From contig JAFWEJ010000004.1 in the NCBI GenBank assembly GCA_017512985.1, positions 1 to 64,000 of the forward strand: a stretch of 64,000 nt of DNA, given 5' to 3'. The position numbers and the translations under genes were made by a program. Source of the DNA: Clostridia bacterium (GTDB taxonomy: Bacteria; Bacillota; Clostridia; Christensenellales; Aristaeellaceae). How positions within the stretch are numbered: the stretch's first letter is position 1; each line of letters begins with the position of its first letter. Of this stretch, positions 229-39,318 are shown piece after piece. The notes under the pieces were generated by a model, which was given only the letters and a program-made list of their open reading frames with translations, was not told where the DNA came from and ran no database searches.

Positions 229-331
229 GCAACCTCAATAGTCGTGACTCCCCACTGGGGAGATCACTCCATTTCGGTTGACCTCACCTCTGACGAGATT
301 TCCGCCACTGGCGGTCGTCAGAGGTTCGCCC
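229..331 (+). repeat. Structured palindromic repeat, copy 1
   Basis: A 103-base unit running from GCAACCTCAAT to AGAGGTTCGCCC. It folds into two hairpins: GTGA-CTCCCC / GGGGAG-a-TCAC, and CCTCTGACGA-(GATTT)-CCGCC / GGCGG-TCGTCAGAGG with an unpaired GATTT on one side. Further copies lie at 11378-11480 (plus) and 20276-20377 (minus). Between copies the stems change in pairs and stay closed, so the fold appears to be under selection or inherited as a mobile palindromic element. The type is not one I can name. Confidence 0.8.
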
Positions 332-11352: not shown

Positions 11353-11377
11353 TGTAGTAACAAAGGATTTGTATTCC

Positions 11378-11480
11378 GCATCCTCAATGGTCGTGACTCT
11401 CCACCGGAGAGCTCACTCCCTTTCGGATGACCTCAGCTTTGATGAGATTTCTGCCACTGGCAGTCATCAGAGCTTCGCCC
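11378..11480 (+). repeat. Structured palindromic repeat, copy 2
   Basis: 103 bases from GCATCCTCAAT to AGAGCTTCGCCC. Hairpins: GTGA-CTCTCC / GGAGAG-c-TCAC and AGCTTTGATGA-(GATTT)-CTGCC / GGCAG-TCATCAGAGCT (one G-T pair). Compared with copy 1, CTCCCC/GGGGAG became CTCTCC/GGAGAG, CCGCC/GGCGG became CTGCC/GGCAG, and GACGA/TCGTC became GATGA/TCATC, all paired changes. A short hairpin CCAAAT-TCAA-ATTTGG (11479-11494) and ACAAATCCGTTTGTTCCCC follow, ending at the recA -35 box. The rest of the 11202-11624 gap holds the element at 11229-11352 and the recA leader. Confidence 0.8.
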
Positions 11481-11513
11481 AAATTCAAATTTGGACAAAT
11501 CCGTTTGTTCCCC

Positions 11514-11542
11514 TTGTCTTTTGTATAATCGAATGATACGAT
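11514..11542 (+). promoter_or_regulatory. Promoter of recA
   Basis: TTGTCT, 17-base spacer, TACGAT. The spacer also contains TATAAT (11524-11529), which could serve as another -10 box. The repeat-derived segment TTGTTCCCC abuts the -35 box, as it does at rpsF. No clear LexA-type site (GAAC-N4-GTTC) is visible. Confidence 0.55.
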
Positions 11543-11624
11543 AGGTTCAGCTGAGGGTTGAACCCTTTGTTGCAGATAGAATTTTGAATTATGAATTGTG
11601 AATGATGAATTGGAGGATCTGCAA

Positions 11625-12758
11625 ATGGCACCGAAAAAAACCGCAAAACCTGAAAAGGCCCCCGCTGCCGCCAACAGCGTACAGGAAGAAAAACTCAAGG
11701 CGCTGGAACACGCGCTGGCTGACCTGGATAAACAGTTCGGCAAGGGTGCCGTCATGAAGATGGGATCTGACGCCGTGAACCGGGATATCCCCGTGATCCC
11801 CACGGGCTGCCTCACCCTGGACTATGCCCTGGGCGTGGGCGGCATTCCCCGCGGCCGCATTGTTGAGATATATGGTCCGGAATCCTCCGGCAAGACCACC
11901 GTCGCCCTGCATGTGGTGGCGGAGGCGCAGAAAGCCGGCGGAATCGCCGCCTTTGTCGACGCTGAGCACGCGCTTGACCCGCTCTACGCGAAGAAACTGG
12001 GCGTCAATATTGACGAGCTTTATGTTTCCCAGCCGGATACCGGCGAACAGGCGCTGGAGATCACCGAGGCGCTGGTGCGCAGCGGCGCGCTGGACGTTGT
12101 CGTGATCGACTCGGTCGCCGCCCTCGTGCCGAAGGCGGAAATCGACGGCGAGATGGGAGATTCCTTCGTCGGCCTGCAGGCCCGCCTGATGAGCCAGGCC
12201 CTGCGCAAGCTGACCGGCGTGATCAACAAGACCGGCTGCGTGGCGGTGTTCATCAACCAGCTGCGTGAAAAGGTCGGCGTCATGTACGGCAATCCGGAAA
12301 CAACCCCCGGCGGCCGCGCACTGAAGTTCTATTCCTCCGTCCGCCTCGACGTCCGCAAGGGAGAGGCGCTCAAGAACGGAGCGGAAATCATCGGCAACCA
12401 CACCAAGGTCAAAGTCGTCAAGAACAAGGTTGCGCCGCCTTTCCGCGTCGCGGAGTTCGATATCATCTACGGCGAGGGCATCAGCAAGGAAGGCACCCTG
12501 CTGGATATGGCTGTGGAATACGGCATCATCACCAAGAGCGGCGCATTCTTCTCCTACGGGGACCAGCGCATTGCCCAGGGCCGTGACAACGCCCGCGTCT
12601 ACCTGCGTGAGCATCCGGAACTGACCGAAGAGATCGATAAGCAGGTCCGCGCGATTCTCTTTGCCCCCAAGGCTATCACCCCGGACGAAGCCAAGGCGGT
12701 TGAGACCCAGAAGCAGGAAGAGGAAGACGATCTTGCCCTGCTGGAAGAGGATATCTGA
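11625..12758 (+). CDS. recA: RecA recombinase
   Basis: ATP-dependent strand-exchange protein of recombination and the SOS response. 377 aa from the ATG at 11625, chosen because GGAGG lies 8 bases upstream; an in-frame GTG at 11598 lacks a site and falls in an AT-rich repeat. Walker [10 protein letters not shown] (from residue 84), [18 protein letters not shown], the [21 protein letters not shown] loop region and an acidic C-terminal tail ([13 protein letters not shown]) are all present. Length is usual for Gram-positive RecA. The leader has an AT-rich TGAATT repeat just before the ribosome site. Confidence 0.98.
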
Positions 12759-19314: not shown

Positions 19315-19911
19315 TTGGACGAACTGCTTCTGCGGCGGGCGCAGAACGGAGATCCCGATGCGTTCGGGCAGCTGATGGAACCGCTTGAGCAGCTGGTCTG
19401 GCGCGTCTGCTGGCACTATACCGGCAACCGGGAAGCCGCTGAGGACTGCGGCCAGGAAGCGATGATCCGCGTCTGGCGGAACCTGGCGAACTACCGCGGA
19501 GAATGCGCCCTGGAAAGCTGGGTTTACCGGATTGCGGCCAACTGCTGTATGGACTGGCTGAGAAAGAAGAAGCGGGATAAAAGCGTTTCGATGGAGCCCC
19601 TGCGGGAACAGGGTTTTGATCCGGCGGACACCTCTCCCGGCACTGAAGAGCAGGTGGCAGCGAAGGATGAGCGGCAGCGCCTGCGGGAGGCTATCGCGCA
19701 GCTGCCGGACGACCAGCGGGAGGCGCTGATCCTGACGCAGCTGGAAAAGATTCCATATGAAGAAGCTGCGCAGTCCCTCGGCATATCGGAGGGAACGGTC
19801 AAAAGCCGGGTAAACCGGGCGAAAGCCCGCCTGAAAGAGATTCTGTCGGAGGAACGGGAACTTTCTCCCCCGGGAAACGTCAAAAAAGATGAAAGGAGGC
19901 CGCGGTCATGA
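19315..19911 (+). CDS. ECF-family RNA polymerase sigma factor
   Basis: 198 aa, TTG start after AAGGGGGGAG. Region 2 (about 18-85) contains AAEDCGQEAMIRVWRNL and WVYRIAANCCMDWLRKK; region 4 (about 122-178) contains LPDDQREALILTQLEKIPYEEA and a helix-turn-helix GISEGTVKSRVNRAKARLKE. These are the two DNA- and core-binding parts of an extracytoplasmic-function sigma factor. Its stop overlaps the next ATG (ATGA), so the anti-sigma-like protein is translationally coupled. Target promoters are not known. Confidence 0.92.
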   Translation: MDELLLRRAQNGDPDAFGQLMEPLEQLVWRVCWHYTGNREAAEDCGQEAMIRVWRNLANYRGECALESWVYRIAANCCMDWLRKKKRDKSVSMEPLREQGFDPADTSPGTEEQVAAKDERQRLREAIAQLPDDQREALILTQLEKIPYEEAAQSLGISEGTVKSRVNRAKARLKEILSEERELSPPGNVKKDERRPRS

Positions 19912-20834
19912 AAGATGAAGAACTGAATGTGATCCTTGATCAGATGGCTGAAGAAGTTCCGCCCATGCCCGCGGACTTCCATGACCGGTGGATGAATGCT
20001 GTTCGCGCGGAAGCGCAGGATGCTGCGCCTGCCGCTGAAGATACAACCCAAAGGAAAACCGTTTCCCTTGTCCGCTGGGCCAGGATTCTCAGCGTGGCCG
20101 CGGCTTTTGTGTTCCTGATCGGCGGTACGCTGCTCTGGAGGAGCACAAAACAGTCCCTGTCCGCTTCCGATAAGGCTGAAAAACGTGAAACCGCCGCCAT
20201 GACTGTCGCGGAAGAGAACACTGCCGTGCCTGCGGCGGAAGAACCCGCTGTGCCGGCTGCCGGCGCCGCGGAAGCGGGCGAACCTTCGACGACCGCCGGT
20301 GGCGGAAATCTCGTCGAAGGTGAGGTCATCCGAAACGAGCAATCTTCACAGTGTGAAGTTGCGACGATTAAGGATGCGGAAGCCATGATGGCCGCGGGTA
20401 TGACGGAAGACACGGAAACGGATGCCAAAGCATCGGAAGAGGAAGCCGGGGACGCGGACCTGTCCTATGCGATGAAAGCGGCCGGATCTGTGCAGAATCT
20501 GTTCGAAGCCTCTTCTGATATGGAATCGGAGGAAGCCGATTACGCGATGGAGTCAGCCTGTGAAGCTGTGGCGGTTGAGGATGCGGAACTGCCCGTACCG
20601 ACAGCTGCCCGGACGGCTGCCCCGACTGCGGTGCCCACGGCCGCGCTGACCCCTGTCCCGACAGCCGCCCCGACTGAAGCGCCTGAACCGGAGGAACCCG
20701 GATTCCTGCAGAATGCCGGCGCGTTCTTTACGGACATGGGAGACTTCCTGCTTGCCGTCCTGCCATATCTGCTGGTGCTGGCGGTGCCCGCCGCGGCCGC
20801 GCTGGTGATCCGGCGGAAAAAAGCGCGGAAATAA
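19908..20834 (+). CDS. Probable membrane anti-sigma factor carrying an in-frame repeat
   Basis: 308 aa. A short cytosolic N-terminus (DEELNVILDQMAEEVPPMPA) that could bind the sigma factor, one membrane segment (about 60-77), a long low-complexity outer part rich in Ala, Glu, Pro and Thr (with PTA-type repeats near 225-260), and a second C-terminal membrane segment (about 280-300) with a basic end. ATGA overlap with the sigma gene supports the anti-sigma role; no known anti-sigma zinc motif is seen. Residues about 123-157 are encoded by palindromic repeat copy 3 (102 bases, a multiple of three), so the repeat was tolerated in the outer domain. Confidence 0.75.
   Translation: MKDEELNVILDQMAEEVPPMPADFHDRWMNAVRAEAQDAAPAAEDTTQRKTVSLVRWARILSVAAAFVFLIGGTLLWRSTKQSLSASDKAEKRETAAMTVAEENTAVPAAEEPAVPAAGAAEAGEPSTTAGGGNLVEGEVIRNEQSSQCEVATIKDAEAMMAAGMTEDTETDAKASEEEAGDADLSYAMKAAGSVQNLFEASSDMESEEADYAMESACEAVAVEDAELPVPTAARTAAPTAVPTAALTPVPTAAPTEAPEPEEPGFLQNAGAFFTDMGDFLLAVLPYLLVLAVPAAAALVIRRKKARK
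20276..20377 (-). repeat. Structured palindromic repeat, copy 3, inside a gene
   Basis: 102 bases on the minus strand, ending TTCGCCC like the other copies. Hairpins: GCAA-CTTCAC / GTGAAG-a-TTGC and CTTCGACGA-(GATTT)-CCGCC / GGCGG-TCGTCGAAG. Both stems differ from copies 1 and 2 by matched changes. It lies in the coding part of the anti-sigma-like gene, reads through without a stop, and is one base shorter than the other copies, which keeps the frame. Confidence 0.8.
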
Positions 20835-39107: not shown

Positions 39108-39309
39108 TTATGATCGCCGTTACCCATCCCTTCTTCGCTTCGCTTGAAGGAATGGACGGCTGTAATAAGGGATTTGTTACCCAAATAAAATTATTTGGAC
39201 AAATCCGCTTATGATCGCCGTTACCCATCCCTTCTTCGCTTCGCTTGAAGGAATGGACGGCTGTAATAAGGGATTTGTTACCCAAATAAAATTATTTGGA
39301 CAAATCCGC
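39108..39309 (+). repeat. Perfect tandem duplication of a 101-base unit
   Basis: Two copies, 39108-39208 and 39209-39309, identical as far as I can read. Each unit holds CCTTC...GAAGG and ends in CCAAATA-AAAT-TATTTGG then ACAAATCCGC. The end matches the tail of repeat copy 2 before recA (CCAAAT-TCAA-ATTTGG, ACAAATCCGT). The second copy continues TTGTTCCCC and abuts the rpsF -35 box. The 39000-39410 gap holds this repeat and the rpsF promoter; no gene is seen. Confidence 0.95.
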
Positions 39310-39318
39310 TTGTTCCCC

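Follow-up and report, generated by a model that had tools for sequence, protein, structure and literature searches.

The palindromic repeats present in three copies in the stretch of DNA analysed here (64,000 nt, hereafter the window) belong to a dispersed family whose unit of 102-103 nt is probably a non-autonomous mobile hairpin element of single-stranded DNA, REP- or IS200/IS605-like in its working and inserted 3' to CC. The element looks like an apparently new relative of the known jumping hairpin repeats, and a literature search that took in few subscription journals and no preprints turned up no publication describing an element of this sort in the group.

Read in the orientation GCA...TTCGCCC, which we call F, the unit consists of two abutting hairpins, H1 and H2, followed by the tail TTCGCCC. 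H1 has an outer stem CAWCC/GGWTG, an internal loop TCAAT/TTTC, more short stems and an ACT loop; H2, five letters after H1, has a stem of 11 bp and one of 5 bp, separated by a 5-nt bulge in the 5' strand, and again an ACT loop. Aligned copies have the ends GCA.../...TTCGCCC or variants of these. Copy 1 (229-331, plus strand, 103 nt; H1 230-280, H2 286-325, right end TTCGCCC 325-331) has CC at 227-228 as its left flank and a 5S rRNA gene 61 nt upstream, and scores 122.8 bits with a covariance model, R1, built from 13 copies of the same genome. Copy 2 (11378-11480, plus strand, 103 nt; H1 11379-11429, H2 11435-11474; 120.5 bits) is followed by recA (11598-12758), and copy 3 (20276-20377, minus strand, 102 nt; H1 20327-20376, H2 20282-20321; 125.3 bits) lies within a gene. 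The initial annotation had described these three copies with their positions, lengths of 103, 103 and 102 nt, ends and two hairpins, all of which are borne out, and the stem pairs quoted in it are correct. It had also called the unpaired GATTT bulge fixed in all three, which holds for these copies but not for the family, where AATTT, AATAT, GACTT, TACTT and others occur. The surroundings of copy 1 just past the 5S rRNA gene (150-415) contain two terminator-like palindromes with common outer letters GGATTCCA, and weak H1-like matches adjoin several 5S genes in genomes G036 and G023.

Each of the six strands tested folds with a z-score between -4.2 and -6.7, and 0 of 200 shuffles folded equally well. 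Across the 13 copies used for R1, 99.1% of 427 stem cells pair and 21 of 33 pairs have changed on both sides; none of 500 shuffles reached any of five covariation measures and sliding the partners abolished the signal. Among 139 distinct full-length copies (of 152), aligned by fitting to the model and so with a lean towards pairing, 4411 of 4583 stem cells are Watson-Crick (96%), and the remaining 172 include 78 G-U (36 from one pair) and 30 A-C. The initial annotation had said that unpaired changes in the stems genome-wide, or a total of three copies with no empty sites, would refute it. This is not what is observed: changes of the first kind amount to those 172 cells, and empty sites exist (see below). 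A set of 45 copies, chosen from 88 diverse ones (out of 145), shows pairing in 99.0% of the H1 cells and in 98.4% and 100% of those of the two H2 stems. Unpaired letters are conserved as well (TCAAT/TTTC, TGACCTCA and the ACT loops). The element displays the features by which REP sequences are judged, namely complementarity kept while the stem letters vary, together with a conserved irregularity or loop.

Covariation this strong, combined with conserved unpaired letters, is what favours a structured RNA under selection (a 3' UTR element, attenuator or small RNA) that is multicopy by chance, a reading offered by the initial annotation. Selected RNA pairing leads one to expect G-U departures far above A-C departures. 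The stem departures in the element number 36 G-U to 26 A-C without one pair and 71 to 28 with it; that pair, G17-T46, is rich in G-U (35 versus 2 A-C) and speaks for an RNA, but outside it there is no wobble excess when measured against 5S rRNA of the same genus, in which the ratio is 118:4 (Fisher p 7e-11 and 1e-7 versus the element). The 5S set comprised the window and 25 of 30 loci (26 sequences, 19 distinct) with 37 pairs of a structure predicted by RNAalifold, and the structures of element and 5S alike were obtained with RNA folding programs, in which G-U pairs are allowed. Recent changes agree: in 26 disjoint pairs of near-identical copies (at most 8 differences), one-sided changes from Watson-Crick gave 8 G-U, 9 A-C and 3 others, with 3 more among mismatches. 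Changes in copies from corresponding spacers (about 78% flank identity; 6-10 both-sided, a few ending in mismatches, and at most 2 one-sided) were not counted because unequal flank distances mean that these may be different insertions.

Orientation relative to neighbouring genes points the same way. Among intergenic copies, 31 are antisense to both neighbours, 9 of them copies at stop codons (discussed below), and 20 are sense, leaving a balanced 22 to 20 once the stop-codon copies are set aside; 16 copies lie between divergent and 13 between convergent neighbours, 21 within called ORFs and 8 were incomplete. These counts are rough, the crude ORF caller having put the genic window copy 3 and a further genic copy, L052, between genes. 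Furthermore, copies lie within coding frames on both strands, and no Rfam family covers a copy: the window gave 5S rRNA only, and four more loci gave one sub-threshold Thr_leader match (E 0.5) off the copy. Because G-U and A-C departures are similar and the intergenic orientation is balanced, the RNA reading of the initial annotation is disfavoured and we regard it as rather improbable; the signs point to a DNA fold, rather than an RNA, as the thing preserved.

With R1, the 2.6-Mb genome to which the window belongs yields 20 strong copies (E<1e-9), all three window copies included, and 29 matches at E<=1, so that the genome-wide count proposed at the outset reveals a dispersed family; plain BLAST finds 15 copies there and misses copy 2. 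Every one of 37 same-genus genomes has matches (1 to 47 each at E<=0.01) and none of 24 genomes from other families of the order. A wider search over the order (396 genomes), run with strict filters and nine candidates scored per genome, gave 12 with matches at E<=1e-4, eight of them listed members of the genus and four from other genera of the same family. These four sister-genus genomes contain weak relatives only (best 42-52 bits), and in the two loci inspected the H1 core is retained and the remainder is different. Viral contigs gave 41 pattern loci, of which the model accepted three as true copies, two of identical sequence; plasmid and phage collections had no blastn match to the element.

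Comparison of filled and empty sites supports mobility. In genome G024 a 102-nt copy sits in frame within a GH3 gene (L172), just before an Fn3-like domain, and close homologues in G005 and G004 (L225 and L226; 75 and 76% identical in the left part) are without it. Once the copy is set aside the sites are equal in length, CCGCCGCC^GGGAAAG against CAGCCCCGGGGAAAA, and there is no duplication beyond CC/CCC, a duplication of which is indistinguishable from a shared target CC. Two DUF2213 genes, L025 in the own genome and L166:12663 in G013, carry in-frame copies at different places, each gene being uninterrupted where the other has its copy. Copy 3 of the window is likewise read through in frame by its host gene (19908-20834, plus strand, 308 aa, no Pfam match), a putative anti-sigma factor to judge from its position downstream of an ECF sigma-factor gene (19315-19911). 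The inserted peptide is absent in all ten genus homologues aligned, in a low-complexity region where the exact join is unreadable. A further in-frame copy, L052, interrupts a gene that is prophage-like by reading, with no Pfam match over the 120 residues past the copy. In-frame insertion in several unrelated protein genes, the hallmark of Rickettsia palindromic elements (RPEs), is accordingly seen in copy 3, GH3, DUF2213 and L052. L052 and L166:9492-9597 (G013) lie in similar genes, both prophage-like by reading, with an identical element at the same codon and left flanks that differ at 90 of 304 positions. In-frame copies show no significant preference for a length of 102 nt (11/53 versus 8/44, p 0.80, with a crude gene call).

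Closely similar copies also occur in different surroundings. L044 and L045, from G004 and G036, differ at 4 of 103 positions and have unrelated flanks; an identical copy occurs at three places in G023 and also in G001 and G036, within a common larger repeat, and several further near-identical pairs share pieces of adjoining repeats. Head-to-tail arrays with a 103-nt period are found in G024, G020 and G217. Two other arrangements were observed on contig C5 of the own genome. At L032 (109402) a 104-nt copy lies between frames resembling an ABC permease and an ATPase, and one open frame spans all three. At L029:1472-1529 a copy abuts a fragment like a tmRNA 3' end (Rfam tmRNA 27 bits, gathering score 47), and about 5 kb away L030 has an identical copy whose left flank is similar, an arrangement suggestive of an integrated element between the two.

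Another pair of filled and empty sites lies within the window itself, where copy 2 interrupts another repeat, hereafter the host repeat. The left arm and bulge of this host repeat (GGATTTGT ATTCC) occupy 11365-11377 and its right part, made of an inner hairpin, ACAAATCC and a common tail to CCCCTTG, occupies 11481-11516 (both plus strand), the outer stem being formed by GGATTTGT at 11365-11372 and ACAAATCC at 11495-11502. Two tandem 101-nt units of the same repeat without the element are found at 39108-39311 (plus strand), with the empty site GGGATTTGTTACC^CAAAT and insertion points 39282^39283 and 39181^39182. When the flanks of copy 2 are joined and aligned to an empty unit, 49 of 59 columns match with a score of 77 (300 shuffles reached at most 30), and both have the same CCCCTTG tail. 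The initial annotation had proposed to look for empty sites in close strains; the empty sites found are those of the GH3 homologues and of the window. The tandem units have 100% matches in TRF, each host repeat is composed of two stem-bulge-hairpin units, and elsewhere in the genus similar sequence lies beside many copies of the element.

By simple motifs, this kind of host repeat is recognisable in the left flank of 23 copies among the 151 full-length ones, which were not de-duplicated; 8 of the 23 lie in the first unit of the repeat and 15 in the second. A seeming long form of the element with an outer stem and a third hairpin (11/150; control mean 0.7, maximum 3) proved to be this host repeat. 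Nesting takes other forms too: L125 and L127 are cases of copies nested within H2 of other copies, and a different, 66-nt module is present in the H1 loops of L034, L147 and L167. This module, itself a hairpin (CCGGGGCTGCC...GAACCC), was observed in H1 loops or between H1 and H2 (L034, L147, L167, L125 and L150), giving rise to multi-level nested palindromes. Insertion into hairpin apices occurs and is not the rule, since in the 53 sites left by strict de-duplication of the 151 the flanks pair over at least 7 bases in 4, against an expectation of 0.74 and at most 3 in any of 400 shuffles.

The dinucleotide CC precedes GCA in 45/45 aligned copies and at 50 of the 53 de-duplicated sites (all but L032, L083:1837 and L129), and inspection of the right flank revealed no common letter. 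At the foot of H2, column 2 pairs with column 47 in 45/45 copies and covaries (CG 32, UA 10, AU 2, GC 1), and column 1 pairs with 48 in only 11/45. The right end varies in step with the two letters 5' of H2, CC occurring with TTCGCCC, CT with TTCACCC and AT with TTCATCC, a co-change that resembles the guide/cleavage-site pairing of the IS200/IS605 family. In IS608, as described in passages of PMC5934647, insertion takes place 3' to a tetranucleotide that is kept in the left flank and involves such guide/cleavage pairing. Unlike IS608, which has a guide 5' to each hairpin, the element has no room for a left guide, because H1 begins one base past CC.

The CC at the left flank and right end would also fit the 2-bp core of a dinucleotide-core recombinase (IS110-like DEDD or serine type), the element then being its passenger and CC a core duplicated at both ends. 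Element ends and a target CC explain the core matching equally well, and the chemistry of such recombinases is not known to need a conserved fold of the whole unit. We consider a passenger of this kind very improbable.

A sub-family of the element is associated with the ends of genes. Of 120 copies with distinct flanks, 13 start exactly at a host stop codon. Twelve of the 120 end in TTCATCC, and 11 of these lie at the end of an opposite-strand ORF of at least 100 codons, with TGA at element bases 4-6 (GGA TGA), the twelfth being a tandem unit; two copies ending in CACCC also supply the stop (GGG TGA), but the TTCACCC copy L017 does not. Eleven is not a number of independent events, since one gene can recur among them from several genomes (L055, L084 and L085 look alike), and the difference from other tails is to some extent inherent, as a tail without TGA cannot supply a stop; the point is that all 11 have the gene in frame. 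Pfam searches of 9 of the 13 genes identified RuvA, adenylosuccinate synthetase and five binding-protein-dependent permeases ending in ...KG*, with matches that reach within about eleven residues of the end, and a seryl-tRNA synthetase whose match stops 24 residues short of it; L024 gave no Pfam match. Among 22 permease ends in G036 and G002, 4 carry the element. Presumed permease orthologues, judged from the last residues only, are filled (GGA TGA) and empty (GGA TAA, GGT TAA) in opposite directions in L291/L292 and L298/L299, a pattern that favours separate insertions at one and the same codon.

Copies at host stops would also suit a structured RNA, with H2 as the first hairpin of the 3' UTR. 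For the DNA element that we prefer, the same copies raise a bolder idea, in which the right end and the two letters 5' of H2 of a transposase-less double hairpin would coevolve as a DNA guide and cleavage site, so that reset sub-families would be re-aimed; the ATTC...TTCATCC form would have been redirected to host TGA codons, becoming the last codons of the gene together with its first 3' hairpin. We think this specific scheme unlikely, albeit worth stating.

What enzyme could move the element was addressed by searching for Y1 transposases (PF01797). The own genome (90% complete, 20 copies) has no match to this family, which is present in 25 of 41 genus genomes and missing from the other 16, including G032 (91% complete, 19 copies). 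At the two Y1 loci inspected, L221 and L223, whose genes we read as RAYT-like from their length and sequence, the element flanks neither gene. Both the distribution of PF01797 and these loci are against a link to a Y1/RAYT enzyme, which is not supported. At L223:2230-2280 (reverse-complement coordinates, G036) the Y1 gene is followed by a 21-22 bp perfect palindrome (GGGACAGACCAACTGTCACG...), which is possibly the repeat handled by this enzyme, RAYT-like by our reading; downstream of the palindrome is a stretch that reads as tandem peptide repeats. A search for an autonomous copy with models of the two halves (R2 and R3) gave no H1...H2 pair with a gene-sized gap among the matches listed for G036 and G023, which were read by eye with up to 150 candidates scored per genome. 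The suggestion of an IS200-like or REP-type palindrome in the initial annotation therefore stands in kind, with mobility, a DNA-level hairpin and the left CC, and fails in two particulars, the recognising enzyme not having been found and the known REP tag being absent.

Copies that remain in place change slowly. In seven same-site pairs, six between genomes and one between two G013 loci, the element differs at 2 of 717 positions and the flanks at 278 of 4185; without two pairs that have mosaic flanks the figures are 1/512 versus 91/2977 (p 1.5e-5). This conservation suggests constraint, homogenisation or recent origin in place. It pulls towards a function in the host, as a dead insertion would not predict it, and it is a further observation in favour of a structured RNA.

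The same conservation, together with the failure to find a mobilising enzyme, lends weight to an enzyme-free palindrome, spread and kept perfect by replication accidents, namely template switching between its arms, CC microhomology and gene conversion between copies. The 26 near-identical pairs contain 14 two-sided changes from one Watson-Crick pair to another, set against 20 that are one-sided (and the 3 among mismatches), a proportion that is by our own reckoning above that of independent hits, and nesting within other palindromes has a precedent in the organelles of Volvox, as passages of PMC2670323 describe. Arm correction alone, however, leaves the conserved unpaired letters unexplained, and the exact ends and unit length, the 103-nt head-to-tail arrays and the confinement of matches to one family in the order sample also count against such a process, to which we assign a small though real likelihood. 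The enzyme-moved hairpin element is our preferred reading.

In order to place this element among known systems, we compared it with four of them. REP sequences (TnpA-REP/RAYT), to go by passages of PMC3733652 and PMC8266576, are likewise dispersed palindromes in which the letters of bulge and loop matter along with the complementarity of the stem, and PMC3733652 describes termini that can supply stop codons and some copies inside ORFs. REPs differ in being 20-40 nt long, where the element has 103 nt, two hairpins and CC at the left flank; in the GTAG/CGTC tag at their terminus, which we tested for and found absent from the element, CGTC occurring only inside H1 and some stems; and in having the Y1/RAYT gene flanked by the repeat, which is not so for the element at L221 and L223. 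Experiments described in passages of PMC8266576 offer parallels: one REP system tolerated the exchange of whole blocks of stem letters without drastic effect, whereas a mismatch affected or almost abolished cleavage; in the E. coli system the bulge was required; and in a third, altering the tetranucleotide at the foot changed which dinucleotide was cut, in one case to CC. The miniatures of the IS200/IS605 family share with the element a hairpin per end and, it seems, a short target kept in the left flank, and the co-change at the right end of the element is reminiscent of their guide and cleavage site (passages of PMC5934647); unlike in these, the element copies looked at have no tnpA inside or beside them and their stems covary across copies.

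The other two resemble the element in what they do to their surroundings. RPEs are palindromic, lie in frame in unrelated genes and are readable as peptide (passages of PMC10969869); by their description they are about 150 bp long and are set apart from a 103-nt, two-hairpin unit with a CC target and nested or tandem copies. The Volvox palindromes, in which hairpins nest in other hairpins and so build up larger composites (passages of PMC2670323), are single hairpins of algal organelles. The steps of the movement that we propose have parallels in REP and IS608 biochemistry; we do not claim membership in either.

We hypothesise that the element would move in single-stranded, folded form. A HUH/Y1-type transposase, of the sort that serves REP sequences and IS200/IS605, may act on it in trans, recognise the hairpin shape together with the unpaired letters, cut after the left CC and at the ...CC of the right end, and join the element 3' to a CC in exposed single-stranded DNA. 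Badly landed copies would be lost, and the survivors would be those lying between genes, in frame within them, or at their ends, where the TGA comes from the TTCATCC form.

In this natural family, DNA hairpins seem to be the source of covariation that equals in strength what a classic RNA shows. The wobble test, in which G-U is weighed against A-C departures with 5S rRNA as yardstick, separates DNA from RNA here and warns against calling multicopy palindromes RNAs by covariation alone. Finally, the filled and empty sites, the in-frame insertions in enzymes and the stop-supplying copies make the spread of transposase-less palindromes directly testable.
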